Positions 10,363 through 35,654 of a DNA stretch of 35,654 bases are shown here, one piece after another. Numbering within the stretch: position 1 is the first letter of the stretch; every line of letters begins with the position of its first letter. This DNA is from a virus. A program made the translations under genes and the position numbers. The DNA lies in the IMG/VR virus record IMGVR_UViG_3300009008_000127, positions 1-35,654 of that record. The stretch is one strand, 5' to 3'. The notes beneath the pieces are model-generated. The model worked only from the letters and a program-made list of their open reading frames with translations. It was not told where the DNA came from and made no database searches.

Positions 10363-10836
10363 TTATCTGTTCATAGCGCCAAATACTTGTTGGTGGGCTG
10401 CACCATCAAAATGAATAACTGCTGACGGGAACGGCGCCGAATTCTCACTGTCTCCAAACTTGAGTCTACCTTTAATAAAATAGATCTCATCAGCCTTCAT
10501 GACGTATTCGTGCCAATATTTTGTGTCTGTGCGCGCTGGGATCAGCATCACGACGCGAGTATTTTCCTTTCGCGATTCTCGATATGCCTTTTCGATCCAC
10601 TTGTCTATTCCTCTCCCATATGGGGGGTTAACAAAGAGCACATGCCCTTCCCAATCTTTTGTCAAACCATCATCGTCTTCTGTGAAAAATTTACCACATT
10701 TAGCGTTGGTCGGGCTTGCGCAAGGGTCAAGTGTGAATGGGCCAAAACGCCAATTAAGTTTATCATAAAAATCTTGGGGGGTGGCCCACTCTCCCGTCTT
10801 TGACGAAAACATTACAACCTGTGTGCTCTTATTCAT
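10363..10836 (-). CDS. Phage DNA N6-adenine methyltransferase (Dam family of phages)
   Basis: 157 residues. Seen: EWATPQDFYDKLN (16-28), TLDPCASP (35-42), NPPYG (70-74), and VMLIPARTDTKYWHEYV downstream. These are the hallmarks of the short phage-type DNA N6-adenine methylases. The NPPY motif is intact, so it should be active. Target site not deducible from the sequence. It overlaps the adjacent methyltransferase by 8 bases and forms the downstream end of the cluster of three methyltransferases. Inference: protection of phage DNA from host or self-encoded restriction. Confidence 0.92.
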   Translation of the reverse strand: MNKSTQVVMFSSKTGEWATPQDFYDKLNWRFGPFTLDPCASPTNAKCGKFFTEDDDGLTKDWEGHVLFVNPPYGRGIDKWIEKAYRESRKENTRVVMLIPARTDTKYWHEYVMKADEIYFIKGRLKFGDSENSAPFPSAVIHFDGAAHQQVFGAMNR

Positions 10837-11611: not shown

Positions 11612-12584
11612 GAAACAAATACTCCTTTACTTTGTTGTTCCTGCTTTGTTTTCTACTGTTGGTTTTGAATCTCCTGTAATCGAGTTCGTGTACCACAGTA
11701 TTTTTAAATTTTAACCCGATCATTTCTTCCAATTCGGAGGGTTGTACTATTCCCTCATTGGAATATGAAACAAACAGTTCGTTTGTTTTTTCGCTACACA
11801 AATTAATAATCCTTTTCATTTCCGCGTGGCAATTTCTTTTAGATGATAGTTTTGATTTCTTATCACTCGTTTCAATGCTTTTTCTAACCACACCCTTAAC
11901 TGCAGGATTATTATACTTAGAGATTGTTTCCAATACGTGAAACACTGATGAGTATTGTCTAGAGTTGTAGGGAGGATCGAGATAGACTAAATCGTAATTA
12001 TCTACGTTGTTCTGTAAGAATTGAGCGGCGTCATCATTGCATACAACATGCTCAGTTGAGCCCCGCGTGTCGACCAGTTCAAAATCTTTCACTCGCCAAG
12101 GTTTTTCACATTGCTTTCTCCAGCCGGCCTTATAATAGCTCTCGTAGGAGCCCATGATATTTGATCTAAAATCTGCCGCTTCTATGGTTTGTGCCAAGTA
12201 GTAAGAAAATTCTTGTGGTGTGAGTTGTTTCGACACCTCATCTATCCAAAGACGGGCACCATCGATGTGCTCTGCAATATCCGTTTTAAAAATGTTAACT
12301 CCAGAACTTTCTGAGTAATTCTGAGTTATAAAGCCGCGTGCCTTATTGTGTTCTATAGCATGTGGCCTACGTGGCGCCTGATCAAGTAAAACTGATCTTG
12401 TGCGGTGAGCAGAAAAACTCAAAAAATCATTTGACACGGTATTGATTCCATAACTTTTAAATAACAAAGAAACTGCACCAGTACCACAAAACAAGTCAAG
12501 CGCTTTGGTGTTGCGTCTAGATTCAAGACGCATGTTGTGACTTAAAAAATCACTTAGTCTATTTTTATTACCTAAATACTTCAT
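11598..12584 (-). CDS. DNA adenine methyltransferase, D12-like (alpha-type motif order)
   Basis: 328 residues. Seen: KYLGNKNRL (2-10), SAM-binding DLFCGTGAV (30-38), and catalytic DPPYNSRQY (203-211) followed by VLETI. The order and the DPPYN-RQY form resemble type II restriction-modification methylases of the D12 group. The central region (100-170) would be the target-recognition part. It overlaps by 4 bases the upstream gene for a protein with a D...ExK motif, the usual arrangement of a methylase with its cognate endonuclease. Specificity unknown. Confidence 0.9.
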   Translation of the reverse strand: MKYLGNKNRLSDFLSHNMRLESRRNTKALDLFCGTGAVSLLFKSYGINTVSNDFLSFSAHRTRSVLLDQAPRRPHAIEHNKARGFITQNYSESSGVNIFKTDIAEHIDGARLWIDEVSKQLTPQEFSYYLAQTIEAADFRSNIMGSYESYYKAGWRKQCEKPWRVKDFELVDTRGSTEHVVCNDDAAQFLQNNVDNYDLVYLDPPYNSRQYSSVFHVLETISKYNNPAVKGVVRKSIETSDKKSKLSSKRNCHAEMKRIINLCSEKTNELFVSYSNEGIVQPSELEEMIGLKFKNTVVHELDYRRFKTNSRKQSRNNKVKEYLFHGIK

Positions 12585-18000: not shown

Positions 18001-18508
18001 GTGCATAGTCAATGCGAGGATAACGATAGAAATTTTCTGATTTATAGCTTTCCGATACAAGCTTGAATAAATTGTTCAGGCCCGTTTGGTTTTGAACCAA
18101 TAGCACAAGGTGCCGGCGCCGGCGTAAAATATCTTGAGTCTTCTTGCTGTTGCCTTCGTCTTCTACGGTAGCGCCTGACTGCTCGTCCTTCTTGATAGAG
18201 CGAGCGGCCTTCTTGTCTTCCATGGCTTGATCATAAGCCTCTCGCCATTCTGAAATAGATGGGGTGAAGTAGGCCTCGCATCCGAAAATGGGCTTAAAGT
18301 CTTGTCCCTGCTCCTCCATTTTCTTTGCGTGCAAAACTTGATAGGCTAGCCCGTTCATATTTCCATGATCTGTTAGCGCCAAGGCATCGCAACCATTCTC
18401 ATACGCGAAATCCATATGAGCTTGGGGATAGCCGATGGCATCAAATATTGAGCCGGCCACACTATGAGCATGCAGCCCAACAAATTTAATCTTCGATTTG
18501 GTTCTCAC
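15080..18508 (-). CDS. dnaE: DNA polymerase III alpha subunit (family C, DnaE type)
   Basis: 1142 residues, full length for DnaE. GTG start at 18508 with AAGGAG five bases upstream; no better ATG nearby. Order: PHP domain (LHAHS at 12-16, LTDHGN at 45-50, ADSHY at 257-261), polymerase core with GRGSAAGSLVAY (431-442), PDIDYD (470-475; catalytic D471 and D473), SRHAGGVVIA (589-598), third catalytic Asp636 in IKFDLLGL, tandem helix-hairpin-helix (IKGLGNAAIEQIL), and a C-terminal OB fold. The PHP metal ligands look intact, unlike in E. coli DnaE, so the PHP may proofread. No DnaQ-like exonuclease is seen in the window. It replicates the phage genome with the helicase at 23938-25323; sliding clamp and loader are not in the window. 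Confidence 0.97.
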   Translation of the reverse strand: MRTKSKIKFVGLHAHSVAGSIFDAIGYPQAHMDFAYENGCDALALTDHGNMNGLAYQVLHAKKMEEQGQDFKPIFGCEAYFTPSISEWREAYDQAMEDKKAARSIKKDEQSGATVEDEGNSKKTQDILRRRRHLVLLVQNQTGLNNLFKLVSESYKSENFYRYPRIDYALLKKYNEGIIASSACLGGVYAGNYWENREEGDEAVLEAMRESTRQMVDIFGDRWYAEIQWNDIKEQHELNQYVIQVAEEFGVGLITTADSHYPGPDAWKDRELYKRLGWLGKGRPSWAEEESQLPEGVEEIGYELYPKNGDQIWESYKQYSESTGFEYDDAVVLKSIEETHDIAFKRIERFLPDNTVRLPEFVVPAGFTATQALVNFALEGLKDKGLHANKEYTERLKRELNIIDDRGFSKYFLTMKSIVDVAASMMLTGPGRGSAAGSLVAYALNITQIDPIKHGLLFSRFLRSDATDYPDIDYDVSDSMALKEKLVEMWGEDCVAPISNWNTLQLKSLIKDISKLYNIPFTEVNTVTSIMIREATPAAKQKHGIKAGVYAPTWEEVMEFSPTLQAYLNMYPAVKTHVEGLVGQVRSCSRHAGGVVIAENLDKNMPLINSGGIRQAPWAEGQNVRHLEPMGFIKFDLLGLSTLKMMEGAIEHILRRRHGIENPTFSQVRKYYEDTLHPDVIDLNDQEVYENIFHTGKWAGVFQFTEQGAQKFCVRAKPTNIIDVSAITSIYRPGPLAANVHDEYVEAKESPHYIKYLNEDAHDITQETFGFLIFQEQIALLAHKLGGLTLDEGNMLRKVLTKKGTGKGSVKGKLHDKFIAGCMENCITRDEAQALWDKFEYFSGYGFNKSHAVSYSVISFQCAWLWNYYPAEWMAAFLDKEPETRKEKAINVAKRYGFDIAPLDINKSGTVWEISDDGKTLIQPLTSIKGLGNAAIEQILANRPMAAAEELLFNENITYSKLNKKSLDALCRGGALDNILDDRFTGRKHFWSACIVDRPKNSKKLTENIETYAPEGDFTEEEIIQFKTDLTGVFPINLVISSDTVQKLQERFIPPISEFDPELQVCWFIPRKVDARTTKNGKSYWIVEVTDTNNQSTRIRCWGVRPERDTIHINRPYMARLKYDEQWGFSAYAIGKTFRLLG

Positions 18509-20547: not shown

Positions 20548-21493
20548 CCTTCTCTTCTTTGACCTCTTCCAAGAGACCCACGATATCAAGACCAGCGCAA
20601 TCTATTTTGCTTTTGCTGACGTGATAGTGACTTACAAAGCCAGAATATTTACCATACGCTACTTGCTGTTCATATTTGGTTGAGTTGCCATTAAACTGAT
20701 TTCTCGGGGTCTCAAATGGTATGCCGGTCGCCTTATTAATCGCAGCCCACAGCGACTTAAGAGCTTCTTTTTGGGCTGGGTAAAAATCCAAGAACGGGTC
20801 TAGCTTAGTGCCATGTACCCAAGCGCCTTCAACGAGCGATCTTTCTCCAAACCCATTGCGCACATACCAATCTTGATATTTCGGGTAATATGCATTCGAG
20901 ATTTCTACTCCCACTGAGGGCCGGTTTGTCCTCTCGGAGCCGGCATGCCACGCTGCATGCTGCATGTCTAATGTTTGGTATATGGTGCCGTCATTGTCTA
21001 TCAAAAAATGCACTGAGATACCGCGCTTGTCCAACACTCTCTGGCAAGAGGTAGAAGACAAGCAAACATCCCAATGATTCACAAAATATCTTATGCTTCT
21101 TTTTGGTCTACTGGTATAATCGTAGTACGAGCCCGGGCGCGCCGCAAGGCCGCCGTGTTCCGACCACAGCACAACTTTTTCCCACTCAATGGGAATAAAC
21201 TCTCCATTATAAACAATGTAATTTGAATATCGACAATCCTTTGGCTTGTGATCATCAATGTTTTCTTGTCGCTCGGTCCATAAGCGCCGGAAAGTCATTG
21301 GCCCACATAGGCCGTCGCCGGTCAAGCCGTGGGCCTTCTGCCACTTTTTAATAGCCCTTACAAGTTTGTCGTCAAAGTACCTTTCGCCGAACCAGTTTGG
21401 GCCCCAGCCTAATTTTGAGGCTGATGCTTCATTATAAAAGTTCTTGTCCATAAAATAATCATCCCAAAGGCGAATCAACAATTCCCACAACAT
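20537..21493 (-). CDS. N-acetylmuramoyl-L-alanine amidase (endolysin) with peptidoglycan-binding domain
   Basis: 318 residues from the ATG at 21493, with AGGA five bases upstream; the frame also has a TTG at 21508. The N-terminal peptidoglycan-binding domain spans about 35-75 (LVRAIKKWQKAHGLTGDGLCG). The amidase_2 domain has FVNHWDVC with a zinc His, then HAAWHAG and SVGVEISNAY. SHYHVSKSKIDCAGLDI supplies the last His and Cys ligands, as in T7-type amidases. There is no signal peptide, so it needs a holin; two small membrane proteins occur in the window (18486-18797, 27767-28009). It overlaps the co-chaperonin gene by 35 bases. Confidence 0.93.
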   Translation of the reverse strand: MLWELLIRLWDDYFMDKNFYNEASASKLGWGPNWFGERYFDDKLVRAIKKWQKAHGLTGDGLCGPMTFRRLWTERQENIDDHKPKDCRYSNYIVYNGEFIPIEWEKVVLWSEHGGLAARPGSYYDYTSRPKRSIRYFVNHWDVCLSSTSCQRVLDKRGISVHFLIDNDGTIYQTLDMQHAAWHAGSERTNRPSVGVEISNAYYPKYQDWYVRNGFGERSLVEGAWVHGTKLDPFLDFYPAQKEALKSLWAAINKATGIPFETPRNQFNGNSTKYEQQVAYGKYSGFVSHYHVSKSKIDCAGLDIVGLLEEVKEEKGAS

Positions 21494-21737
21494 AATTATC
21501 CTGAACAATATAATAAGTCACATTATTAATGCAAATTTCTTCGATCATTTTATTATCAACTGCAACAAAAGCGTGTTTTTTTAGATCGAACCGTGTATCC
21601 TGGGCCCAATCTAATACCCTGTACATACTGTGTATTTCCTGCTTTGGTTCATAATCTTCGGGTAATAGGACACTGGATGTTTTTTCCTCTGGTTGGGCTT
21701 TTTCAATTAGAATATATCTATTGACTGGTTTAAGCAT
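21459..21737 (-). CDS. GroES-like co-chaperonin
   Basis: 92 residues. LKPVNRYILIEKA (2-14) matches the first strands of GroES (RPLxDRVxVK). EEKTSSVLLPEDY (17-29) fits the mobile loop, with VLL where GroES has the IVL GroEL-binding tripeptide. KHAFVAVDNKMIEEICI and YYIVQDNYVVGIV match the later strands, including the last strand (ESDILAIV in E. coli). Sequence identity is low, as in phage co-chaperonins such as T4 gp31. Inference: partner of the phage GroEL at 2616-4193, although the genes are far apart. Overlaps the upstream gene by 8 bases. Confidence 0.75.
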   Translation of the reverse strand: MLKPVNRYILIEKAQPEEKTSSVLLPEDYEPKQEIHSMYRVLDWAQDTRFDLKKHAFVAVDNKMIEEICINNVTYYIVQDNYVVGIVDSPLG

Positions 21738-23937: not shown

Positions 23938-25323
23938 TCATCTTCCTTTTCTAAATTTTTGATATCTATTGAACAAAATCTCTTTTTGCTCTTTCGCACT
24001 CAAGGGCAAAGGATTTTGTGGTATTGGATTTGTAGAAGTAGCTGCAGTACCGAAGGACTTTGAAAGTACTTTAATGCAGACATTCGAGGTGTCCATAAAA
24101 AGCTCATGCACAAATCCATCGGGACCATTTCTATTTTTTGCAATAAACATTTTACCTTTATTGTTTTGCTTATCTTCTATTGTTCTAGAAACGGTAAATA
24201 TGAAGTCAGCCACAAAACACTTATTGAATGCCTCGGAAATTTGTTCCATTGTGATAACTTCCGCGTTGAGTCCGGAACGATTGGTCTGAGAAGCCGTCCA
24301 AATAGGGCACTCAAACTCTTGAGATATGGCTCTCAATTCTTCATAAATTGATTCCAATTCATTTCTTTTTTCTTTTCTAGCTGTGACTGGCTTGAGCAGA
24401 TCCGCATAATCAACGATAATCATTCCCGGCCTGATGCCTCTCTTTAATAACCTCGACAGGTGGGATCTAATCGTGTTGGTGGAGGCTGATTTTGTAGGAT
24501 ATTCTTTAATGATCAGCTTGCCATCAATGTTTTTAACTGACTCATAGATTTCATCCTTAAAACTAGTTAAATCTGACAAGGGATATCCAGTAATACAGCT
24601 ATCATAACGACTGGCGACAACCGTATCTTGCAATTCTAATGTGTAGTGGATGACGGTCCTATTTTCTTTCAGGGCTTCTGAGCCCAGATGTACCAAAACC
24701 ATCGACTTGCCGGCGCCCGTGGGGGCAATAACAACGCCCAACTCACTCTTGCCTAGACCGCCGTTACAAATCTTATCAAGCTCATCCCAGCCGGTTGTTA
24801 CCGGGTTTCTAAACTTTGGCTTAAATCTCTCTTCAAAGTCGGCCAGATAATCATATCCGAAATTATTTTCAGAACCAAGCTTAATGGCATCATTAATAAC
24901 TTTGGAGATCTCGTCGAAAGAGCACGATTGTAGCAGATTTACGGACTTCATCATCGCCTCTTTTAACTTTTGCTTTCGACAAAACTCTAAGGCGGTTTCT
25001 TTGATGTAATCTACTTCGTCAATCTCTCTAGAGTGAATCATTGCAAAGTAATCTTTAACTTGCTTTTGAATCACATCATCTTCGCGATCAAGTTGAGTTC
25101 TGACAATCGATATAATTGCTTCCGGCGACGGATGCTTATTATACTTGATTCTATATTCCATGATCTTGCCGGCAAAGACTCTCAAATATTCAAGATCTAA
25201 AAAGTTGATATCTAGAACTTCTGTGATCTGATCGGCGAATGGGCGATCCTCAAAGATAAGCTGCACTAAGCCTTCTTGGAAGGACTTTCCATACCTTCCA
25301 AAGTCTACTCTTTCTGCTAACAT
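23938..25323 (-). CDS. DnaB-type replicative helicase (T4 gp41/T7 gp4-like)
   Basis: 461 residues. Walker A APTGAGKS (200-207), catalytic Glu230 in YTLEL, Walker B MIIVDYADLL (301-310) with Asp305, and TASQTNRSG (343-351), the H3 motif of hexameric RecA-fold helicases. The N-terminal 160 residues are helical, as in the DnaB N-terminal domain that binds primase. No primase is seen in the window. Upstream are GAGGG and the promoter at 25345-25373. It unwinds DNA ahead of the phage polymerase. Confidence 0.94.
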   Translation of the reverse strand: MLAERVDFGRYGKSFQEGLVQLIFEDRPFADQITEVLDINFLDLEYLRVFAGKIMEYRIKYNKHPSPEAIISIVRTQLDREDDVIQKQVKDYFAMIHSREIDEVDYIKETALEFCRKQKLKEAMMKSVNLLQSCSFDEISKVINDAIKLGSENNFGYDYLADFEERFKPKFRNPVTTGWDELDKICNGGLGKSELGVVIAPTGAGKSMVLVHLGSEALKENRTVIHYTLELQDTVVASRYDSCITGYPLSDLTSFKDEIYESVKNIDGKLIIKEYPTKSASTNTIRSHLSRLLKRGIRPGMIIVDYADLLKPVTARKEKRNELESIYEELRAISQEFECPIWTASQTNRSGLNAEVITMEQISEAFNKCFVADFIFTVSRTIEDKQNNKGKMFIAKNRNGPDGFVHELFMDTSNVCIKVLSKSFGTAATSTNPIPQNPLPLSAKEQKEILFNRYQKFRKGR

Positions 25324-25470: not shown

Positions 25471-26457
25471 TCAGGTCGCAGACCCGACACATTCTATACT
25501 AATTTTGTTCAAAGATACCTTCAAATCTTCCCAATTTAACTCCCCAAACCCATCTTCGATCATCATCCCAAGTATGGCCGTTTTATTAAAGGAATACTCG
25601 AATTCAGTTATTGCGTAGTCAACCTTTTGTTTTGCCTGAATAGACATTTGCGGGGCATACAACTGCATCATGTTATAATTGTGTTCTATCAACTCTTTAG
25701 CTTCGACGACATTAGAATAAAATTTTGGTTTTGCCTCGGTGATTTCGCAATATCCAACCACATCATCAATAGAATAGGTTTTTTCTTCTGCCAAAAACGG
25801 TAAGCGTTTAGCTATTGTGGCCAAGCCGGCACCACGAACGCCCTTTAGATTATCGCTGGTGTCTCCTGCAATTGCTCTCGCGAGTGCCATATTCGTAGGA
25901 TGTATCCCGATTTGCTCCGTGATCGTGTTCATGTTCATGATCTCTTTCTTAGTTGGTCTAAGCAAGATCGTTTCTTCATCGCAGAGCTGCATAAAATCCT
26001 TGTCATTCGAAACGATCACCTTTTGCCATCCATCATAATGTGGCATTCTGGTAATGTACGATATAACGTCATCTGCTTCAATTTCTGGCAGCATTGTCTG
26101 AACTATGGGCATCTCATTCACATATTCAATAAGGCGAGATTGCTGCCAAACCTTATTCTGCATCTCTTGATCATCAGTAAGATTATGGAAGGCTCTGTTT
26201 AGGCGAATTGGCTTGCGGCCGGCCTTGTAATTCTTATCCATGGACTTTCTTTTCTTAGAACCATTGGGTCCGTCCCATACAATAATAATCTCTTGAGGCT
26301 TTGTATCTCTTACGAGTTTTTGTAAAATCTTAATAAATCCCTTCAAGCCGCCGATTGGCTGACCATTGGCAGAGATTGAGGGGTCAACAATATAAGCCCT
26401 CAAGTAAGCGTTTAAGGCATCCACGATAAGAAGCCTTTTCTTGTTAGTGTTTGTCAT
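25471..26457 (-). CDS. 5'-3' exonuclease/flap endonuclease (FEN family)
   Basis: 328 residues. Conserved acidic residues of FEN nucleases: D13 (LLIVDALNAY), D62 in VWDG, E127/D129/D130 (EIEADD), D152 and D154 (SNDKDF), D199 and D202 (AGDTSDN). The helix-three-turn-helix GVRGAGLATIAKRLP (206-220) follows. The length is that of T5 or T7 exonucleases. It removes RNA primers and processes flaps. The promoter at 26460-26488 leaves almost no leader, so the start may be leaderless or lie downstream. A 147-base gap with no gene follows up to the helicase. Confidence 0.93.
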   Translation of the reverse strand: MTNTNKKRLLIVDALNAYLRAYIVDPSISANGQPIGGLKGFIKILQKLVRDTKPQEIIIVWDGPNGSKKRKSMDKNYKAGRKPIRLNRAFHNLTDDQEMQNKVWQQSRLIEYVNEMPIVQTMLPEIEADDVISYITRMPHYDGWQKVIVSNDKDFMQLCDEETILLRPTKKEIMNMNTITEQIGIHPTNMALARAIAGDTSDNLKGVRGAGLATIAKRLPFLAEEKTYSIDDVVGYCEITEAKPKFYSNVVEAKELIEHNYNMMQLYAPQMSIQAKQKVDYAITEFEYSFNKTAILGMMIEDGFGELNWEDLKVSLNKISIECVGSAT

Positions 26458-26459
26458 AA

Positions 26460-26488
26460 TTTATAACTTATTACAGGGGAGATGTCAA
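26460..26488 (-). promoter_or_regulatory. Strong promoter directly at the exonuclease start
   Basis: Minus strand: TTGACA (26483-26488), 17 bases, TATAAA (26460-26465). The hexamer ends only two bases before the annotated ATG (26457), so the expected transcription start is at or beyond that codon. Confidence 0.75.
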
Positions 26489-26493
26489 GCGTT

Positions 26494-27621
26494 TTATCCC
26501 GGTTCTGCATAAAATTGTTCCGCGGATCCTTCTCTTCGATCAAACTTTTGAACTACTTCTTCATCCATCAGCTTAATGATGTTGTTTTTAAATTCTTCAT
26601 CCGCTTGTAGGATCTCGGTCCACTTGGATGGTTGAAACTTTTTCTCATACCCATCTGGCATCTTAAGAGTATACCACGCTCCAGCGCTGGTTAGGTAATC
26701 AGAACTCTTTACGGCATCAAACCAGCTTTCCTCGTCGCGGATGCCAATATCTTCGGTACCCCACAGGATACGGAAGGCACAGTTTCTGCCTTGTGTTCCA
26801 AAGCGCGATTTCTCTAGCTTAACTTTAACTTCGGATCCGATTCGGAACCCCTTTTCATCCTCGATGAAAGCAGACTTGGCTTTGCGGCCGGTGAGCCAGA
26901 TGCGCAGCGAATACGAATAGTGCATCGCCTTGCCGCCGGGTGTCATATAGGGGGTAGTCATCGCAATAATGCGAGCGTTAGGGCCACTTGGAATATTTGT
27001 CTTAAGCTGGTTAAGCACAACAAACGTTGCCTGCTTGTCTGCAATAGGAATGATCAGCTTTGACATTCCCTTAGCGAGAATACGAGCCTTGACCGCCATC
27101 GAGGATTGAGGATTAAAGTCTCCCTCAACATCTGATACCGAAGGCGTCAATGCCAGAGAGTCCCAGATAAACAACAGTTGTTCATCGGTTGCCCCAAGCA
27201 GTTCTTCCACGGTTTCCAGCACAAACTCCACAGAGGACGCCTGAACGTACATTAAACGCTCTAGGTCGCATCCTGCTCGCTCCAAGAAGCTTGGGTCGAT
27301 GGCAGACTCGGAATCGAAGTAGACGACCATCTTGCCCGTTTTCTGAGCGTTTGCGGCCACTTGCGCAGCCATGTAGGATTTACCGGTACTCTCCAGGCCT
27401 GCCAGTTCTGTGACCTTACCGACTGGAATCCCAGCTACCTTTCCTTTACATATAATAGAATCAAGCCATCGCGAACCAGTAGAGATCCACTCTTTTACTT
27501 CGGTTGGATTTTCTCCTGTTAGATCGTGAGCGACATTTCTGCCGGCTTTCTTATTAACAAGACTCATCAAGTCTTGCATTGATACTCTTCCAGCTTTTGT
27601 TTGTTTGGCTTTTCTAGCCAT
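26494..27621 (-). CDS. recA: RecA/UvsX-type recombinase
   Basis: 375 residues. The start is the ATG at 27621 with AAGGAGG four bases upstream. The open frame reaches 27672, but those 17 codons lie in the tRNA. Walker A GLESTGKS (75-82), catalytic Glu105 in YFDSESAID, Walker B LLFIWDS (149-155) and NQL (204-206). The GLESTGKS form and the NQLK motif resemble phage UvsX-like and RecA-like recombinases. Basic N-terminus. The C-terminal 100 residues include ILWGTEDIGIRDEESWFDAV. It drives homologous recombination and recombination-dependent replication together with the SSB upstream. Confidence 0.94.
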   Translation of the reverse strand: MARKAKQTKAGRVSMQDLMSLVNKKAGRNVAHDLTGENPTEVKEWISTGSRWLDSIICKGKVAGIPVGKVTELAGLESTGKSYMAAQVAANAQKTGKMVVYFDSESAIDPSFLERAGCDLERLMYVQASSVEFVLETVEELLGATDEQLLFIWDSLALTPSVSDVEGDFNPQSSMAVKARILAKGMSKLIIPIADKQATFVVLNQLKTNIPSGPNARIIAMTTPYMTPGGKAMHYSYSLRIWLTGRKAKSAFIEDEKGFRIGSEVKVKLEKSRFGTQGRNCAFRILWGTEDIGIRDEESWFDAVKSSDYLTSAGAWYTLKMPDGYEKKFQPSKWTEILQADEEFKNNIIKLMDEEVVQKFDRREGSAEQFYAEPG

Positions 27622-27645
27622 GTGGCCTCCTTGGCATAAATAAAA

Positions 27646-27722
<77 letters not shown>

Positions 27723-27730
27723 CATAAGGC

Positions 27731-27753
27731 GGCAGACTTTACACCGGTCTGCC
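27731..27753 (-). repeat. Short inverted repeat upstream of the tRNA
   Basis: A 7-base perfect stem (27731-27737 with 27747-27753) with a nine-base loop, between the stop of the small membrane protein gene and the tRNA. No T run follows, so it is more likely a processing or stabilising hairpin than a terminator. Confidence 0.5.
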
Positions 27754-27766
27754 AGCGGCTTATTCA

Positions 27767-28009
27767 CTACTCAGTTGTAGTTGTTGTCTCAGTCGCATTA
27801 CCTGTGTTTTCATTGGTTGCGGTAGTAGTTTCAGAAACTTCGACTGCACTTGTGGTTGTCTCGGCAGTACCTGTCGTGGTAGCCTCACTGACTTCCTCGG
27901 CCGGCGGCTCGAAAGTGCAAGTCCCATATGCAGTAGCGACCACTAGGGCCCCTGCCACAAAACTAACCTGGACCTTCCATCGGGCCAATTGCGATTTTAA
28001 CCATTCCAT
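27767..28009 (-). CDS. Small membrane protein with a Thr/Glu-rich tail
   Basis: 80 residues. AGGAG precedes the ATG at 28009. Basic N-terminus, one transmembrane segment (QVSFVAGALVVATAYGTC, about 14-31), then a low-complexity tail of Thr, Glu, Ala and Val, ending TETTTTTE. No lipobox in the canonical form. It follows the SSB gene in the same unit. Function unknown. Confidence 0.65.
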   Translation of the reverse strand: MEWLKSQLARWKVQVSFVAGALVVATAYGTCTFEPPAEEVSEATTTGTAETTTSAVEVSETTTATNENTGNATETTTTTE

Positions 28010-28042
28010 AACATTCTCCTTTTCTGTGTTACATAGAATAAA

Positions 28043-28070
28043 GTGGTGCCCTGTTTTGCCGGGGCACCGC
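28043..28070 (-). repeat. GC-rich inverted repeat between the SSB and membrane protein genes
   Basis: Stem of nine pairs (28043-28051 with 28062-28070), including one G-T pair, around a ten-base loop, just after the SSB stop. On the minus strand it is followed by TTTATTCTAT, a poor T tract. It could act as a weak attenuator that lowers expression of the downstream genes relative to SSB. Confidence 0.45.
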
Positions 28071-28079
28071 GGCTTTTCA

Positions 28080-28850
28080 CTAAGCTCCGCTCATCAGATC
28101 GTTAAATGCCTTATCGACTTCACTTGCTCCCTTCGCATAGCGTACGCTCTCACTTGAGCGCTCCTCTGCAGATTTGGAGCCAGACATCTGTTCATCCAAG
28201 ATGGCATCAATTTGATTAGGGGCGAGCCTTTCAAATAGACCATCAAAGTCAGGCATATTATCGAGCATACCGGGAATTGCCTCTTGATCTTCCAAGAGTG
28301 GCGATGTGTTGCGGCGCATTTTGAGATTAGTTTGGGGATACGCTCCCGGTCGAGTTGGCTTAGTGTACGTTAGCGTGATATCGGTGCCTTCCTTGAGGTC
28401 GGTGATATCTCCGTACTCCGGATCAAGAATGTAGCCAAGCAAAAGCTCGTAAGCTTGCTTTCCATAGCCATAAACCTTGATTCCTTCGTCTTCGTTACCA
28501 CGAACAACAACAGGCGAGAAATATCGGGTACGCACAAAAAGACTCTTTGCAAGCTTCTTGCTCTCCTCATCGTTCTTGTCGACACCCTCGCGCCAAAGCG
28601 TTGAAGCGAACTCACAAATCGGACAATTCTCTCCAAAGTTACGCTTCGGGCACATGATACCACCCCTATGATCTCCCACGTTATAGTGGAAGAAAAATTC
28701 CTTCAACGGATCCCCATCACCAGTGGGTACGATCCGAATATCTTGATCTCCCTCATCTGGCTTAAACCAAATTGAAGGGCCATCGTTGTATTTTCCCTCG
28801 CCACGAAGTGTAGCGAGCTTTTGCTTCATTAATTCCATATTAATTGACAT
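28080..28850 (-). CDS. Single-stranded DNA-binding protein, T4 gp32-like
   Basis: 256 residues. The N-terminal basic segment (MKQKLATLRGEGKY) resembles the gp32 cooperative-binding region. A zinc site is seen in H55 (or H61), C67, C76 and C79 (CPKRNFGENCPIC), matching the His-Cys-Cys-Cys spacing of gp32. The OB-fold core follows, and a long C-terminal part with DMPDFDGLFERL and other acidic residues would bind partners. AAGGAG precedes the ATG; promoter at 28902-28930. It covers ssDNA in replication, recombination and repair. Confidence 0.9.
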   Translation of the reverse strand: MSINMELMKQKLATLRGEGKYNDGPSIWFKPDEGDQDIRIVPTGDGDPLKEFFFHYNVGDHRGGIMCPKRNFGENCPICEFASTLWREGVDKNDEESKKLAKSLFVRTRYFSPVVVRGNEDEGIKVYGYGKQAYELLLGYILDPEYGDITDLKEGTDITLTYTKPTRPGAYPQTNLKMRRNTSPLLEDQEAIPGMLDNMPDFDGLFERLAPNQIDAILDEQMSGSKSAEERSSESVRYAKGASEVDKAFNDLMSGA

Positions 28851-28901
28851 TATTTTCTCCTTTTGTTTTTAATAAAGTATGCCAAGCTTTCCTTGACATC
28901 T

Positions 28902-28930
28902 AATATAGCACCCTTGAACAAGCAAGTCAA
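28902..28930 (-). promoter_or_regulatory. Promoter of the SSB, tRNA and recA unit
   Basis: Minus strand: TTGACT (28925-28930), 17 bases, TATATT (28902-28907). The -35 and most of the spacer lie in an 8-base inverted repeat (28910-28917 with 28927-28934). The -35 also overlaps the stop codon of the upstream gene. Confidence 0.8.
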
Positions 28931-28934
28931 GGGT
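28910..28934. repeat. Inverted repeat across the -35 region of the SSB promoter
   Basis: Perfect 8-base arms, ACCCTTGA and TCAAGGGT, with a nine-base loop. It covers the -35 hexamer and nearly the whole spacer, so it may be an operator. It is not followed by a T run in the direction of transcription. Confidence 0.6.
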
Positions 28935-29769
28935 TATTTTGTATTGCGTTAGTATGGGCAACGCAGAACCCAAAATCAGTTTCATATGGCGATTCATAAA
29001 TCGCATATGTCAGATTCTTAAAAGCATTGGTTGATTTTTGTTTTAACTTTTCTATTATCCTTTGATGCAAGCCGCCGTCCTGTTCTAATTTTTCTTTTGA
29101 TATACAGAAATAATAACACACATCCCTGCTCATGTCAAGCTCAAAAAACCATTTTTCTTGAACTTTATTGGTGTCCAGTCGGCCGAGGGTCCTTATTCTT
29201 TGTACTTCTGATGGGTGGCTTAAATTGCCAATGATTGGCTTTGTGTGATCAAATAAATTCTTATAATGAACACTATAATAAATAGTTTGATTTATGGTTT
29301 CAAAATACTTTTTAATCGGAACATCCCCAATTATTTGCTCTAAAACTGGATTACTAAAAATGGTGATCGAGTTAAATAATCCGCTTCGAGCATACTCCTG
29401 TAAAATTGCGAATATCGCCTTCTCTTGCAGCTTCATATTCCCTATCAACAGTTCCGTGTCTGGCTTGATGTAAAATAAATCTATTTTTTTATCTTTAATC
29501 TGCTGTAAAATGCATAGTGTATAGTTGGCACTCTTGCTGGCGCCACAAACAAAAACTTGAACATTTTCAGTGGCCTCTTTAAAAAACTTGGATAAATTTG
29601 GTATGTTTTTTTCATAATCTTCTTGTTCATCATAAGATTTCAACTTATACTTGAATTTGGTAGTCTTGTCAAATTCACCTGAAAGGCAATATACTTTATA
29701 CTCTCTGTTTTCTTTAAAGTGGGCGGCGATTGCTGTGCCGGCTTTGCCGATACCAATGGTGGTAATCAT
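28927..29769 (-). CDS. Divergent tubulin/FtsZ-like protein
   Basis: 280 residues. The order of motifs follows the FtsZ/tubulin GTPase and C-terminal domains. ITTIGIGKAGTAIAAHF (2-18) stands where FtsZ has the GxGGxG loop. VFVCGASKSANY (72-83) falls at the place of the GGGTG(S/T)G signature but is degenerate. LFNSITIFSNPVLEQIIG and FETINQTIYYSV (156-167, N160) match the FtsZ NDKLLKVL and AFxxANDVL segments. GNLSHPSEVQRIRTLG (181-196) matches the catalytic T7 loop region, but the NxDxxD is changed to NLSHPSE. YAIYESPYETDFGFCVAHT resembles the last C-terminal strands. Inference: a filament-forming tubulin homolog in phage DNA positioning, like PhuZ/TubZ, with altered or no GTP hydrolysis. The alternative is a plain Rossmann protein. 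It overlaps the polymerase gene by ATGA. Confidence 0.6.
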   Translation of the reverse strand: MITTIGIGKAGTAIAAHFKENREYKVYCLSGEFDKTTKFKYKLKSYDEQEDYEKNIPNLSKFFKEATENVQVFVCGASKSANYTLCILQQIKDKKIDLFYIKPDTELLIGNMKLQEKAIFAILQEYARSGLFNSITIFSNPVLEQIIGDVPIKKYFETINQTIYYSVHYKNLFDHTKPIIGNLSHPSEVQRIRTLGRLDTNKVQEKWFFELDMSRDVCYYFCISKEKLEQDGGLHQRIIEKLKQKSTNAFKNLTYAIYESPYETDFGFCVAHTNAIQNNP

Positions 29770-30953
29770 AATTTAAGCTCCATTAGTTCTGAATAATTTT
29801 TACCCGCGTTGAGGTTGCACATAAACGTGCCCAGCTTTGTCTCTTCAAATATAGATTTAATCTCGGGCACTAACTCTCTCTCTTTACTATCAAGATCTAC
29901 GACAATCTCATCGTGGACTATGTGCGATATGAAGCTCTTTTTGTCTGATAAATACTTGTCAATCTCGATAGCTCTGTCAATTACAGCGTCCGAAGTAGTG
30001 CTTTGAATTATGTAATTGAAGGCGCGCCGAGAATCGATCTTTATTTTTCTTCCAAAAGGTGTAGTAATATATTCCCCGTCATACCATCTGTCAAGTACTT
30101 TTTTTCTATCATAATAGTCAGTGTTTATTATTCTAGAGTCAGGATTGTACAACCACGAAAAGAAAATTGTTTTAGCTTCTTCTCTGTAGATGTTGCTTTT
30201 TGCGATTACATTATTAATATTCCACTCATGTATGTCTTCTTGTGGCTGCTCTTTTCCACTCATGCTCAAAAGTGTCCTAATCTCTGCTCCATTAAAATCG
30301 AGTGACAGAAACCAATCATTTTTTGGTTTAATAAGTTTTCGATATTCCTTTTTCATCGTTAGAATGGGCGTAGTTTCAGGCTTTGTGGTCAGTCTTCCCG
30401 TGGCGGTACCGAATAAGTTATAATCGATGTATGGAGATCCTGCCAAAAGCTTCTTAATTGCCGATCGGTCCGATGTGCTCACGAACAAGTGTCGACACTC
30501 TTCACTATTGAGGTTTAGATTTTGAAATTTTATCTTGTGTAACAGCTTATATGCAGCGTCCAAATGGCCATAATTAGGAGGCCTTTCATAATTCTCAAAA
30601 ACATATTTTGTTATTTTATTTCTAATTTCACAAAATTCTAACAAAAAATCGTGAGGAACCAAATCAAAAAAACAAAAACTTCTCAAATCTATTTTTGCCA
30701 ACTTAAACGACTTCAAATATGCTTTAAACTTCTTTTGCGTCCTGTCTAAGTGATCTTTAATTTCTGGAGGACAAGCTTGCGCCAAAGATTTGCCCCCACA
30801 ATAAAGCCATGCGTACTCAATCTGGTCACCCGCTGCAGAACCAGTAAACTTCCATGTTCTTGTCAGATCATCTGGAATTTCATCAAAATTCAATTTTCCA
30901 TCTGCATAGACCCCTATGCACTCTGTTTTATCGTCTAAAGTTTGAAAATACAC
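29766..30953 (-). CDS. DNA polymerase, family A (polymerase domain only)
   Basis: 395 residues from a GTG at 30953 with GAGGG four bases upstream. The open frame reaches 30998, but those 15 codons contain the promoter of the gene. Positions below count from the GTG. TATGRL (183-188), motif A DFNGAEIR (219-226) with the metal Asp219, motif B RxxxKxxxFxxxY exactly spaced (R257, K261, F265, Y269), Gln317 with Asn313, motif C HDEIVVD (347-353). All catalytic residues are present. There is no 3'-5' or 5'-3' exonuclease domain; the N-terminal 180 residues match no domain I know. Since the window also encodes DnaE, this enzyme may fill gaps or mature Okazaki fragments with the exonuclease at 25471-26457. 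Confidence 0.92.
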   Translation of the reverse strand: MYFQTLDDKTECIGVYADGKLNFDEIPDDLTRTWKFTGSAAGDQIEYAWLYCGGKSLAQACPPEIKDHLDRTQKKFKAYLKSFKLAKIDLRSFCFFDLVPHDFLLEFCEIRNKITKYVFENYERPPNYGHLDAAYKLLHKIKFQNLNLNSEECRHLFVSTSDRSAIKKLLAGSPYIDYNLFGTATGRLTTKPETTPILTMKKEYRKLIKPKNDWFLSLDFNGAEIRTLLSMSGKEQPQEDIHEWNINNVIAKSNIYREEAKTIFFSWLYNPDSRIINTDYYDRKKVLDRWYDGEYITTPFGRKIKIDSRRAFNYIIQSTTSDAVIDRAIEIDKYLSDKKSFISHIVHDEIVVDLDSKERELVPEIKSIFEETKLGTFMCNLNAGKNYSELMELKL

Positions 30954-30969
30954 TTTTCCCTCTGATACT

Positions 30970-30998
30970 AGTATATCATCTCTTTTTGCTTCTGTCAA
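30970..30998 (-). promoter_or_regulatory. Promoter of the family A polymerase unit
   Basis: Minus strand: TTGACA (30993-30998), 17 bases, TATACT (30970-30975). It overlaps the end of the upstream virion gene and shows that the TTG at 30998 is a promoter hexamer, not a start codon. Confidence 0.8.
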
Positions 30999-32241
30999 GT
31001 ACGCTTCTTTTTATATCTGTCAGAGTGCCCTTCCCTCTCAGGCCTTTAAATTTAGCATCTACCAAGGCAGATATTTTATTATGTTTTTGAAAGTCTGACA
31101 TTTTCAATTTTCCGATCTCAGCTATTTCAACTTTTAAAACCTCAAGCTCTCTTTTCCCGACATAGTTTCTATTTTCAATATTTTTTAACTCAACATAGTT
31201 ATTTATAAAATAATCGGGACCATATCGCTGGTACACCTTCTGTGGGTTCATTCTTTCTAAATTGTACTTTTCCGTTAAAACATACTTTCCTCGAGGTACT
31301 CCCCTAGATGTCAAATTCTTCTTGTCAACATATAGATTATACAATCTAAGAGTGAAATCCATAAATTCCTCAAAATCATTACGATTTGCTGGCCTACAAT
31401 ACATAGAAAAAAACGATCGCGGACCATAGACTCCGTATTTTGCCATATATTGGCGCATTGTCGGAGAGCTAAGATCTGCCACCAAGCGCCAGGGAGCGTT
31501 TCTGTCAACTGAAAACCCAACCTTCATGGCAACATTTAAATAATAATCAAAATTGGCACTTTTGTAAAATAACTGATCGATTGGATTATCTTTTGAAAAG
31601 TCACCCTCAGCTATTTCAATCACAAGGCCCGAGGTACGAAGAGGGACCGATCTGTGTTTCATCATTTCTGGCTTTAAAAACGGAAAGACGAAAGACACTT
31701 GATCAACGTAGTGCAAGAAATTTCTCATAAACACATCGAATGTGCCAATATTTCTGCCTGTAGCTTTCTCCATTGCAAAAAGGTACTCCATACACCCACG
31801 TGTGTAAGGTCCGGACCTAACGCCTTTTTTTAAATTTTCAAAACTCAAATACGCGAGTTTCGGAATGGGAACCGACAGGTAAGGATCGTCAAGCACAATT
31901 TTTCCATTCTGCCTAGCTGCTTTAAAATATTTCTCCAGATCTGCAAATGCATCAGCAACAAAATTGACCGCTGTGATTCCGGGGTTTTCATCCGAAAGGC
32001 CAACTTTACGCAATATTGTATGATCTTCGCTCGGATCTAAAACAACCGGGATTCCTTCCGTGTCTATCTTCCCATAAGTTATTGTTTCTCCAAATCGAAA
32101 ATCTTTTATGCATTTCGCAAATTTTGAATTTGTATTATCAAGCGAGCGCGATTGAACCTCTGCATCAATATTTACTTTAAAGTTGAGTCTTGATATAAAA
32201 GCCTCAACGGTTCCTTGTTCGTTATTTCCTGTAAATGCCAT
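30976..32241 (-). CDS. Probable virion protein of unknown function
   Basis: 421 residues, start ATG overlapping the upstream stop in TAATG. Long, soluble, with no recognised motif; aromatic-rich middle (PEMMKHRSVPL, FYKSANFDYYLNVAMKVGF, FFSMYCRP) and a basic C-terminus (KRSVLDRSKKR). Its tight coupling to the large structural-looking gene suggests a tail, neck or baseplate part. This is inferred from context only. Confidence 0.65.
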   Translation of the reverse strand: MAFTGNNEQGTVEAFISRLNFKVNIDAEVQSRSLDNTNSKFAKCIKDFRFGETITYGKIDTEGIPVVLDPSEDHTILRKVGLSDENPGITAVNFVADAFADLEKYFKAARQNGKIVLDDPYLSVPIPKLAYLSFENLKKGVRSGPYTRGCMEYLFAMEKATGRNIGTFDVFMRNFLHYVDQVSFVFPFLKPEMMKHRSVPLRTSGLVIEIAEGDFSKDNPIDQLFYKSANFDYYLNVAMKVGFSVDRNAPWRLVADLSSPTMRQYMAKYGVYGPRSFFSMYCRPANRNDFEEFMDFTLRLYNLYVDKKNLTSRGVPRGKYVLTEKYNLERMNPQKVYQRYGPDYFINNYVELKNIENRNYVGKRELEVLKVEIAEIGKLKMSDFQKHNKISALVDAKFKGLRGKGTLTDIKRSVLDRSKKR

Positions 32242-35200
32242 TATAGTTTACTAAGTCCCTTGGATTTGTTTTCCAAAAATATTTGGAACTGGTCTGCTAT
32301 TTCGGAGCCCGGGTAGTTCCTGACCTCATCGCCCTTGGCGGGGTCAAGAAAGCCTTCGAAGCCGGCACCAAAAGCTTCTTCTACGGCTTTGCGGGAGGCT
32401 CCGTGGTTTTTCTCAAAAAAGCCACATTCTTTTCCTTGAGATTTACTGCTCCGCGGGGTTCTCCTTAAAGCGTCATTCAGGGTTTCTGTCGTGCCGTGAG
32501 AGGTCCATTTTGCAGTTAAGGTGGTATTAAATTCGCCCGGAGCAATTCTATTTTTTGCGTGGGTTATTAGGTGATACCCTCCGAAACCCAGCATATATGC
32601 CAAAGAATCTTTATCGGAAATCTTCCCCAAAGCCAAATCAATTGTTCTTGGGTCTATGAAACAAATAGAGCCTGGGAATATATTCGGAAGCCCAAAAGTA
32701 TCTATTGTGAGCTTGTATGGCTCTCTTAACTGTAAAATTCTATTTCTTTTGTAGTTTGTTTCCGATGCAAAGAACCTCGCTTCTCTGACATATGGCTGAT
32801 CGTCTTTTTCAAAAGATATTTTTTGAACCATTCCGCTATTGACACCAAAATTAAATTGATAATATCCACTTGCTAAATTTTTCTGTGTCGGTGTCGGAAA
32901 AGACAACTCGCTGCAGTTTAGCCCAGCAACTGTTGGGTAGTAAATGAAATAATTAATCCAATTTTCGGCTGCCTTCTCTGAATAAAATTGCATGAGGCCA
33001 CCCTTTTTATCTCCTTGTGTTATCCTGGTTATTGACTTACACGCTGAGCCTGGGGGCGCCCCTTCCGGTGCAGGGATAAACAAATCATATGTCAGCCTGC
33101 CTTTCTTTTTCGCTACTGTGTTCGCACATTTGCCGACTGCATCCAAGGGGGCATAAACTTGCGCCAATTGGATTGAGGTCGCGTCAGTTAACGTATCTGA
33201 TTGTCCCGTTTCGTCCGCATAGTTTTTAAATTTGGAAAGAACCTCACGCAAAAACTCGTCCATAAACAAGCCGAAGCTATATTGAGGAAACTGCCTATTT
33301 CCTTGATATTTTGTAATTTTTTTCACAAACCAAACCGAAAAAGTCTCAATAGATACTGGTATGTCCGCCATATTTACTTCGTGCCAAAGCCCGGCGCCCG
33401 GAGCTTGAGGGGCTTGCGTCATTCTTATGTCTGTCAATATAACTCTGGTATTATCAAACGCCTTCTCGGCAGCGGTTCCCAATTTGCGCGTGGTTGCTCG
33501 ACCTTTGTAGCTAACGTTGACAAGTGTTTTGACTACTTTAATTAAATCACCAACATAGAAAAACGGCACAGAACGTCGGCCATCCGCCAGAACAAGTTGC
33601 GGATCTATGTTCTCCGTAAATAGGTTCTCTACGCATTTGTCGAGATCCTTGGCCTCGCATTTTTGGGCTCCTTTTACGTTTTTTATAAGATCTGATATAA
33701 GTTGAGGTGGGGTGTCGCCGTCCTTGGGAGGATACATGTCAAGATCTCGTGTGATCAATTTTCTACTAATTAAATCGTTAACACGGGGATAGATCGTGTA
33801 GATTTTTTTATTTGTGCGCAGTTCTGTAAGGATGGAAGAAAAAACAAGTGTCTGCAATTCTTTGCCAAACCAATCTACTTGTGTGGTTAAGTTTGCCCTT
33901 AGTCTGTCGGCAGCATCCGAGGAGCCGCACTGGGCCATGATTTTTTGAACTAATGCTGTAGCGCTATCAAAAGTGTCCTCAAGCTCTGCATTCGCAAAAA
34001 TATTTGCACCTTGAGAAAACGCGACAGCTTCCAAATATCCCCTATAGGTAATAACCAAATTCACAGAACCATCTTCCTGGATGTCAAACCTGTGATCTAT
34101 AAGCGTGGCGATAATGGGCAACACGCACATATCAATGGCCTTTCTTTTTGCGTCTGGGATGATATCGCCGGCACCCATCGCGGGATCAGAATATGCATAT
34201 CCTATTAAAAACTTTATCCGATAATGCTCAGGATCCCAACCGGACTGATCGACTGATTTATTTCCAGATCCGCCAGTAATCGGACCAGACCTCGTAATCA
34301 GATCTTTATAAGAAAACTCGCCGCGTCCGGACTCTCCTTTCTGGCCAGTAGGGCGCGTTCTTAAAATGTCCGTAAAGCTTTGAAAGTATAAAGTCAAAGT
34401 CAAAGAGATGTCTTTAGTGTCGTTCGCCGGGTTTGTGCCCTGGTAGCTCCATTCGAGGCTTCTAATTCCAACTGAATTTCCTTTATTATAATTCTCAACT
34501 ATCATGTTTGGATTTTGCTTTATTGCAGCCTTGAGATCCATATTGTTGATGGCATTGCTTTCAAAAGGTATCTCTTGTTCATAACCGGGGCCCTGTTTAA
34601 AAAGCCTAATCATTGGGACCAAAGAAGAAATCTCGGCCGGCGTTAAGTCCAAAAGCGCCTGCTGGTTTTCATTGAACAGTAACTGGCTGACACCACATTC
34701 GGTCTTGCCTTCGATTGGATATACTCCTTGAAATGTATCTTCGACGGGCGCATTTTTATATTTCTCGTCGGATTTATATTTATGATAAATTTCGACGCGT
34801 CCTTTTTCTCTTAATGCAGAGAAAGTAGGAGTATTAATACTAAAATAATCTTTAATGCTGGTTCTGATATTGGCAGCAGCATCTTTCTGTGCTTGTGTGA
34901 CCGCTTGCTTTCCGGCGGGTGGTGTGGAGGCTGCTACTTCCGTGACGGCGCCGGTTCCTTCGGCGGCGGCTTGAAGGGAGTCGCCGAGAGTGCCCGCATC
35001 GATATCGTCCCTGATTTGCTTAACCTTGTCCGCATCGGCAGTCGATAGAGGGTCTGCGCCCCCAAGGGCCTCAAGGGCAGTCAAGACTAACGCATATAGA
35101 CCCAAAAGGGTTTGATAGTCAGTATAGGTATAAGAATCTTTAACAACTTTTAAAACCTCTTCTGCTATGATAGTTCTTGTATTTTCTGATTTAGAGCCCT

Positions 35201-35654
35201 CTGTCCCGGTCATCTCGGCCATGGCCGATTGGACATTACTAAGTAAGGTGGGAATTGCGGCGCTTGAGTTAACTGCGCTTGGGGAAGCATATCCCAGAAC
35301 TCCAACATATACTGTGCCATCTTGCCATTTGGCAGTACCCGAATATACATCTCCACTCTTAGAGACAAGCGCGCTTAGTTTAGCCTCGTCAACAGTGTAA
35401 GCCGTGCCGGATGCAATAGGTTCATATATTTCGTCTTTTATGGTGCGGGCGGCCCGATGAAAATCAACTTTCCCCCACAGTATGGCCTTGGTGTACGCCG
35501 CCCATATGTCTTTGGAACTACGAAAGATCCTATAACAGTTCCCCAAAAATGTAGAAACTATTTGGCGCTGGTCGACGCTCAGGGAATCGACGTTGGCCTC
35601 ATCGGCTCCCGTCGTCATTTCCGAAACGAGTTCTGTGCCGGCTTTTAAAGACTC
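32241..35654 (-). CDS. Large virion protein, probable baseplate/tail hub component, N-terminus missing
   Basis: At least 1137 residues. An ATG at 35618 is present, but it has no Shine-Dalgarno sequence and the frame is open to the window edge (ESLKAGTELVSE before it), so the gene probably starts outside. The N-terminal third is Ala/Thr/Asp rich and helical. The C-terminal part has YKLTIDTFGLPNIFPGSICF (residues counted from the ATG: near 1000), LGFGGYHLITHAKNRIAPGE and FNTTLTAKWTSHG. This is the pattern of phage hub or late-control D-like proteins (PGxxxxIDP, GxYxIxxVxHxIxxGxFxTxLxxxW). The family assignment is by resemblance only. Confidence 0.7.
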   Translation of the reverse strand, partial: ESLKAGTELVSEMTTGADEANVDSLSVDQRQIVSTFLGNCYRIFRSSKDIWAAYTKAILWGKVDFHRAARTIKDEIYEPIASGTAYTVDEAKLSALVSKSGDVYSGTAKWQDGTVYVGVLGYASPSAVNSSAAIPTLLSNVQSAMAEMTGTEGSKSENTRTIIAEEVLKVVKDSYTYTDYQTLLGLYALVLTALEALGGADPLSTADADKVKQIRDDIDAGTLGDSLQAAAEGTGAVTEVAASTPPAGKQAVTQAQKDAAANIRTSIKDYFSINTPTFSALREKGRVEIYHKYKSDEKYKNAPVEDTFQGVYPIEGKTECGVSQLLFNENQQALLDLTPAEISSLVPMIRLFKQGPGYEQEIPFESNAINNMDLKAAIKQNPNMIVENYNKGNSVGIRSLEWSYQGTNPANDTKDISLTLTLYFQSFTDILRTRPTGQKGESGRGEFSYKDLITRSGPITGGSGNKSVDQSGWDPEHYRIKFLIGYAYSDPAMGAGDIIPDAKRKAIDMCVLPIIATLIDHRFDIQEDGSVNLVITYRGYLEAVAFSQGANIFANAELEDTFDSATALVQKIMAQCGSSDAADRLRANLTTQVDWFGKELQTLVFSSILTELRTNKKIYTIYPRVNDLISRKLITRDLDMYPPKDGDTPPQLISDLIKNVKGAQKCEAKDLDKCVENLFTENIDPQLVLADGRRSVPFFYVGDLIKVVKTLVNVSYKGRATTRKLGTAAEKAFDNTRVILTDIRMTQAPQAPGAGLWHEVNMADIPVSIETFSVWFVKKITKYQGNRQFPQYSFGLFMDEFLREVLSKFKNYADETGQSDTLTDATSIQLAQVYAPLDAVGKCANTVAKKKGRLTYDLFIPAPEGAPPGSACKSITRITQGDKKGGLMQFYSEKAAENWINYFIYYPTVAGLNCSELSFPTPTQKNLASGYYQFNFGVNSGMVQKISFEKDDQPYVREARFFASETNYKRNRILQLREPYKLTIDTFGLPNIFPGSICFIDPRTIDLALGKISDKDSLAYMLGFGGYHLITHAKNRIAPGEFNTTLTAKWTSHGTTETLNDALRRTPRSSKSQGKECGFFEKNHGASRKAVEEAFGAGFEGFLDPAKGDEVRNYPGSEIADQFQIFLENKSKGLSKL

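Follow-up and report, generated by a model that had tools for sequence, protein, structure and literature searches.

A small, diverged tubulin/FtsZ-superfamily protein encoded in the replication operon of uncultured phages

We propose that a group of uncultured phages encodes a 'mini-tubulin', which represents a new family of the tubulin/FtsZ superfamily and serves DNA replication in phages of the divPolA1 group, probably as a GTP-binding scaffold. We put the probability of this reading at roughly 0.6, with GTP binding, polymerisation and the partners of the protein being inferred. The tubulin/FtsZ fold and membership of the superfamily are close to certain, and a role linked to replication is likely. 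The gene was found in a 35.7-kb fragment of a phage genome (the whole stretch of DNA analysed, hereafter the window), and its open reading frame is exactly the one that the first-pass annotation of this DNA had indicated:

28927..29769, minus strand: mini-tubulin gene, 280 aa, ATG start (open reading frame, AlphaFold2 model, Foldseek and VIA matches, at least 590 relatives)

This is a real gene under strong purifying selection, with dN/dS of about 0.03-0.08 for pairs with dS <0.7. Searched on its own, the window protein gave no significant hit in Pfam or PHROGs; a sequence comparison of the family profile with solved structures likewise gave none, and the HMM of the PhuZ family (phrog_4733) matched neither the window protein nor the relatives searched. 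No Pfam or PHROG family names the mini-tubulin, which was previously unrecognised. The absence of a naming match in Pfam, PHROG or isolate phages agrees with the earlier suggestion of a new branch, and the analyses support a new, diverged family of the tubulin/FtsZ superfamily.

The first-pass annotation had described the product as a divergent tubulin/FtsZ-like protein, to be checked by structure prediction with a fold search. AlphaFold2 modelling based on the family alignment gave a confident structure (pLDDT 91.8, pTM 0.90) whose elements, named by analogy with FtsZ/tubulin, follow the order S1-H1-S2-S3-H3-S4-H4-S5-H5-S6-H6-H7-S7-S8-H10-S9-S10. The predicted fold includes a Rossmann-like GTPase domain, the central helix H7 and a C-terminal alpha/beta domain. 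A second model, that of a relative 37% identical to the window protein, has a pLDDT of 94.5 and agrees in fold. Neither helix H8 nor H9 is predicted in either model (DSSP for the T7 region), and the C-terminal domain is present in both:

28951..29196, minus strand: C-terminal (activation-type) domain with S7, S8, H10, S9 and S10, without H9

Foldseek searches of the PDB returned only FtsZ or TubZ structures among the best 50 matches (E 2e-11 to 1.5e-9, TM mostly about 0.7), and the named entries in the top five viral models are an FtsZ cell division GTPase, a cell division protein and a tubulin. With VIA-align, the window model matches CetZ (Z 22.2, rmsd 3.3 A, 257 residues), TubZ (Z 21.7, 275 residues) and tubulin (Z 19.8, 267 residues), and the CetZ/TubZ alignments cover residues 1-280. 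The model of the relative scores higher still (CetZ Z 24.9, TubZ Z 23.9, with up to 20% identity to TubZ). Two confident whole-length models with a C-terminal domain thus uphold the tubulin/FtsZ fold, with FtsZ, TubZ, CetZ and tubulin as the best matches.

The outcome that would have refuted it, a plain dehydrogenase-type Rossmann fold without the C-terminal domain, was not obtained. In that reading the protein would be an NAD(P)-binding protein of the dehydrogenase or TrkA type that resembles tubulin only in its GxGxxG loop. Some relatives do match TrkA_N (E 6e-5) or saccharopine dehydrogenase (1.2e-4), and for the N-terminal glycine loop NAD-type Rossmann families outscore Pfam tubulin in single-sequence HMM searches. 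However, both models match tubulins over their whole length, including H7 and the C-terminal domain, and none of the top 50 PDB matches is a dehydrogenase. As far as structure prediction goes, the two whole-length matches rule this reading out, and we give it hardly any credence.

Homology was also detected by the profile-profile search that had been suggested alongside the fold search. In hhalign, a profile of 40 members of a second, divergent clade aligned with a nine-member PhuZ profile with a probability of 87.5% and a score of 49.4, well above the maximum of 20.3 for 60 column-shuffled controls and comparable to the score of FtsZ against PhuZ in the same set-up (50.5). This alignment spans only residues 4-98, from T1 to S5. 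The comparison with FtsZ gave 24.9-25.9 against null maxima of 23.1-26.3, at or barely above the null, and was dropped as evidence. Pfam Tubulin (PF00091) matches 6 of the 40 second-clade members, with E values of 0.0058 or worse, below the cut-off. A lead to phrog_5908 (1.5e-5, in one of two relatives) was rejected, as the match where inspected was limited to residues 57-119 and this family also matches 13 cellular control genomes. Sequence thus supports homology to phage tubulins in the N-terminal part, and structure does so over the entire protein.

The carriers of the gene are a widespread group of uncultured viruses of bacteria. Scanning IMG/VR with close patterns yielded 81 relatives, and the motif [IV][LF]QEYARS alone gave at least 594; at least 590 loci encode a mini-tubulin. 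The second clade, at 26-40% identity, was reached via two divergent loci. Clustering at 90% identity left 104 distinct variants, 63 in the clade of the window and 41 in the other. Conservation in at least 590 viral contigs, these 104 variants, the low dN/dS and the PhuZ profile score together indicate that the family is not a product of chance. A tblastn search of 50,697 phage records with three family members gave no usable match, and a scan of a genome collection with the QEYARS pattern gave nine pattern matches, none of them a relative. The group appears to be mostly marine, an inference from the sample types in these IMG/VR series and from marine or brackish relatives rather than from a tabulation.

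The position of the gene gives an indication of its role. It is surrounded in the window by the following genes:

29766..30998, minus strand: short family A DNA polymerase of the divPolA1 type, 410 aa (PF00476, E 9.8e-15; phrog_17)
28080..28850, minus strand: gp32-like single-strand DNA-binding protein, SSB (PF08804, E 5e-14; phrog_1192)
26494..27672, minus strand: UvsX/RecA-like recombinase (phrog_97, E 8e-60)
25471..26457, minus strand: 5'-3' exonuclease of the FEN/RNase H type (PF02739, E 5e-30)
23938..25323, minus strand: DnaB-like replicative helicase (phrog_19, E 8e-74)

A gene for a B12-type ribonucleotide reductase comes after that of the helicase. The family A polymerase had already been pointed out as the neighbour; its stop codon overlaps the start of the mini-tubulin gene by 4 nt (ATGA), and the same overlap is found in 153 of 196 loci. 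Both clades share the order divPolA1-tubulin-SSB-UvsX-FEN-DnaB with occasional extra genes, and in some distant loci one or two genes separate polA from the mini-tubulin gene. All 53 loci that were fetched via the adjacent polymerase and have enough downstream sequence encode a mini-tubulin, and no polA-tubulin fusion was found. The mini-tubulin gene is thus a core gene of the replication operon. This place points to a role in replication rather than to a spindle; the gene order implies a role shared with the operon but not contact with the polymerase.

By eye, the PolA protein keeps the DxxxxE, R-x3-K-x3-F-x3-Y and HDE motifs, and it is too short for a normal 3'-5' exonuclease domain. The window codes for two polymerases of different families, the other being polymerase III alpha-like (15080-18508, 1142 aa, phrog_405). 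It also contains GroEL and GroES-like genes about 17 kb apart (2616-4193 and 21459-21737, the latter with an E value of 0.0016). The divPolA1 proteins have been described as divergent PolA enzymes of 155-190 kb phages that also have a 'regular' polymerase and GroEL/ES, with a replication role argued from the gene neighbourhood and no mention of a tubulin (PMC11348598). Both partners, the second polymerase and GroEL/GroES-like proteins, are present in the window. We therefore place its PolA in the divPolA1 group on the basis of shared gene order, size and partners, without a tree, and propose that the mini-tubulin carriers belong to the divPolA1 group of roughly 190-kb phages.

The same polA-SSB-UvsX-FEN-DnaB order, with other genes in the slot of the mini-tubulin, is found in two isolates: Flavobacterium phage immuto_3-5A, a divPolA1 phage, and Microcystis phage Mel-JY01. 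Since both have the order without the gene, the mini-tubulin gene is an addition that has become fixed in the uncultured lineage under study. The slot gene of Mel-JY01 (428 aa) was considered as a possible family member and excluded by eye and with the family HMM. Mel-JY01 itself (45674-64654) seems to be an isolated member of the divPolA1 group; its PolA is annotated as hypothetical and its exonuclease as 'DNA polymerase I'.

We mapped the nucleotide pocket and the putative interfaces onto the predicted structure using the models and the 104 variants:

29731..29754, minus strand: T1 loop, residues 6-13 (GIGKAGTA), directly after S1
29524..29544, minus strand: T4 loop, residues 76-82 (GASKSAN), after S4 (model and clade comparison)
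29380..29400, minus strand: QEYARSG signature closing helix H5, better conserved than any other stretch of the family
29350..29352, minus strand: T6 asparagine N140 at the guanine-pocket position, in 102 of 104 variants
29248..29316, minus strand: central helix H7, residues 152-174, with F156-x3-N160 at guanine-pocket positions (model and conservation)
29197..29247, minus strand: T7 region, residues 175-191, with no H8 predicted and a single conserved acid, E188, followed by R191

The segments that had been listed in FtsZ/tubulin order all lie where the fold requires them in the predicted structure: in addition to the T1 and T4 loops, FSNP forms T6 after S6, FETINQTI starts H7, GNLSHPSEVQRIRT runs from T7 into S7, and FGFCVAHT is S10, the last strand. 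The residues of the guanine pocket are nearly invariant. Position 156 is aromatic (F/Y) in 103 variants and N160 is found in all 104; by order and near-equal spacing, the E. coli FtsZ counterparts are IPN165 for N140 and F182-G-A-A-N186 for F156-x3-N160. In FtsZ and tubulin, these T6 and H7 residues hold the guanine, as is established for those proteins. The T1 GxGxxG is also present after S1, as GIGKAGTA in the window and GLGQAGCN in the other clade, with G6 in 102 and G8 in all 104 variants; G11 is missing in half of the window's clade.

T4 departs from the canonical GGGTGS/TG signature. The window protein has CGASKSAN, and the second clade has GSGxxSG, with G78 in 40 and G82 in 33 of its 41 variants, versus 3 and 0 of 63 in the window's clade. 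The altered GGGTGTG loop noticed at first reading thus corresponds to a loss of the T4 glycines in one clade and to a variant loop in the other. The parallel claim that the catalytic acids are altered also holds. T7 does not retain its N-x-D-x-x-D motif, and an acid at position 184 is found in 4 variants only; however, 84 of the 104 have D or E at 188, matching the D-V-x-x register of FtsZ D212, so that the T7 acids are not wholly lost. Q124, Y126 and R128 of the QEYARSG signature are invariant, and this stretch sits on the far end of the helix relative to the nucleotide loops. With the pocket kept, T4 and T7 altered and H8 and H9 not predicted, we infer, without binding data, that the second clade at least is likely to bind GTP and that a canonical self-activating protofilament is doubtful. 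Nucleotide binding may be weak in the window's clade because of the loss of the T4 glycines and of G11 in half of its members.

A second, canonical FtsZ-like GTPase of 378-384 aa is encoded in four relatives of the window's clade, those whose contigs reach the relevant region. Its gene immediately follows an SbcDC-type gene and is located ~40-45 kb upstream from that of the mini-tubulin:

L234, 5284-6435: second FtsZ-like gene
L235, 5223-6377: second FtsZ-like gene
L236, 4797-5936: second FtsZ-like gene
L237, 5312-6448: second FtsZ-like gene

These proteins pass the Pfam tubulin cut-off, with a marginal PHROGs match, and harbour the motifs GVGGGGN in T1, GGGGGTGSS in T4 and D-x-x-D in the T7 region. 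They have an acidic N-terminal extension. At 85-88% identity to the first of the four, they vary much less than the mini-tubulin. In the second clade, three contigs of 120-187 kb contain SbcDC and no second FtsZ-like gene. This raises the tentative idea of a two-tubulin replication system, in which a universal mini-tubulin is wired to the polymerase and SSB and one clade has in addition an FtsZ-like GTPase with SbcDC, the mini-tubulin having lost its phosphate loops where the second protein is present. If true, it would point to labour being divided as between non-catalytic and catalytic tubulins in a mixed polymer. The link between the second gene and the decayed T4 is based on a small number of genomes and probably goes back to one evolutionary event.

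Other functions can be envisaged for the same fold. One is that of a self-sufficient, cytomotive tubulin in the manner of PhuZ or TubZ, which would position or segregate phage DNA or virions in the cell by means of GTP-driven dynamic filaments. The full fold with its C-terminal domain, PhuZ as the closest profile match, the conserved guanine pocket and the acid at 188 in 84 of 104 variants are all compatible with it. We nevertheless find it rather unlikely, since the window's clade lacks the T4 glycines and the T7 N-x-D-x-x-D is lost with no H8 predicted, while the canonical, PhuZ-type lower interface of the protofilament is made of loop T7, the base of H8 and S9 (PMC3678025). In addition, the gene is located in a replication operon, with no chimallin gene and no iterons: chimallin, the protein of the phage nuclear shell (phrog_4795), was not found in the records of 10 relatives, three of them of 185-191 kb, in a search that detected the phiKZ positive control, and no tubC-type iteron array was seen in window positions 27600-32300.

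The opposite extreme is a non-polymerising accessory subunit of the replisome, a pseudo-tubulin whose fold is only a binding module, e.g. for divPolA1 or SSB. The ATGA overlap that couples the gene to polA in 153 of 196 loci, the universal retention in the polA-SSB operon, the decay of the phosphate loops in one clade, the missing H8 and H9 and the location of QEYARSG, the most conserved motif, at a helix end away from the nucleotide loops would all fit. However, the invariance of the guanine-pocket residues would then be unneeded, and polA and the mini-tubulin gene are separated by one or two genes in some distant loci; we regard this as possible, without favouring it. Phage division inhibitors are well known, and with its tubulin-superfamily fold the protein might instead serve host takeover as a decoy, co-assembling with the FtsZ of the host to block division. 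This is very unlikely, as similarity to FtsZ is very low by hhalign and the position in the replication core is fixed across 26-100% identity, unlike that of variable host-takeover genes.

We thus favour a GTP-binding scaffold in the service of replication, and infer how it might work. The mini-tubulin would bind GTP or GDP, which is better supported for the clade with the glycine-rich T4. Its conserved lower face (QEYARSG, the end of H7 and E188/R191) may mediate head-to-tail association or association with a partner. The resulting scaffold, slow or static, would hold the polymerase-SSB-UvsX machinery or the replicating DNA together and, unlike PhuZ, would not be a fast motor driven by its own hydrolysis. 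In the window's clade, the FtsZ-like GTPase encoded next to SbcDC may supply a dynamic polymer, which the mini-tubulin may cap, nucleate or regulate. The data suggest that these viruses organise DNA replication with a cytoskeleton-type protein.

Among known systems, PhuZ and phage TubZ (phiKZ gp39 and relatives, phrog_4733) share with the mini-tubulin a phage origin, the fold class and the best profile-profile match. In contrast with PhuZ (327 aa in phiKZ), the mini-tubulin is about 45 residues shorter, has altered T4 and T7 and no predicted H8, and belongs to a replication operon, with no phage-nucleus shell gene found in the relatives searched. CetZ and plasmid TubZ give the highest structural scores (Z 22-25 and 21-24, respectively), but they are only 10-20% identical to the mini-tubulin, which does not keep the T7 motif and has no tubC-like iterons near its gene. 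With FtsZ it shares the fold and the T1, T6 and H7 motifs in the same order and at near-equal spacing; it differs in lacking the GGGTGTG loop, N-x-D-x-x-D and predicted H8 and H9, and in a profile score near the null. FtsZl1 and FtsZl2 are precedents for diverged families of the superfamily whose polymerisation elements are altered and whose gene neighbourhood is distinctive, although they are cellular, have extra domains and, for FtsZl1, occur in membrane-remodelling neighbourhoods (PMC2875224). For function, a comparison can be made with AlpC of prophage CGP3, a cytoskeletal protein without which viral DNA is not replicated efficiently and which, unlike the mini-tubulin, has an actin fold and an adaptor, AlpA (PMC4446434).

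Whereas known phage tubulins are linked to jumbo-phage spindles or to plasmid-like partition, the mini-tubulin is encoded by a core gene of a replication operon, in a phage group that is large, abundant and uncultured. It is probably among the smallest proteins with a whole tubulin fold, and it no longer has parts that are considered necessary for the polymerisation chemistry of tubulins. A gene family unnamed in databases is given a function class, and two questions would become testable: whether tubulins can support replication factories where phages form no nucleus, and how much loss of T4 and T7 the fold tolerates while still acting as a nucleotide switch.

Several other features of the window were recorded. 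Upstream of polA (30976-35618), two large genes (421 and 1125 aa) are conserved and have no significant Pfam or PHROG match. Positions 26000-35654 contain 29 sigma-70-like promoter matches, versus 18.6 +/- 4.2 in shuffled sequences, with strong minus-strand matches at 30998, 30094 and 29138. Three consecutive DNA methyltransferase-type open reading frames are found at 10363-12584. Finally, a gene of the IMP dehydrogenase/GMP reductase family is present at 8372-9394 (PF00478, E 3e-100), an unusual case of phage purine metabolism.
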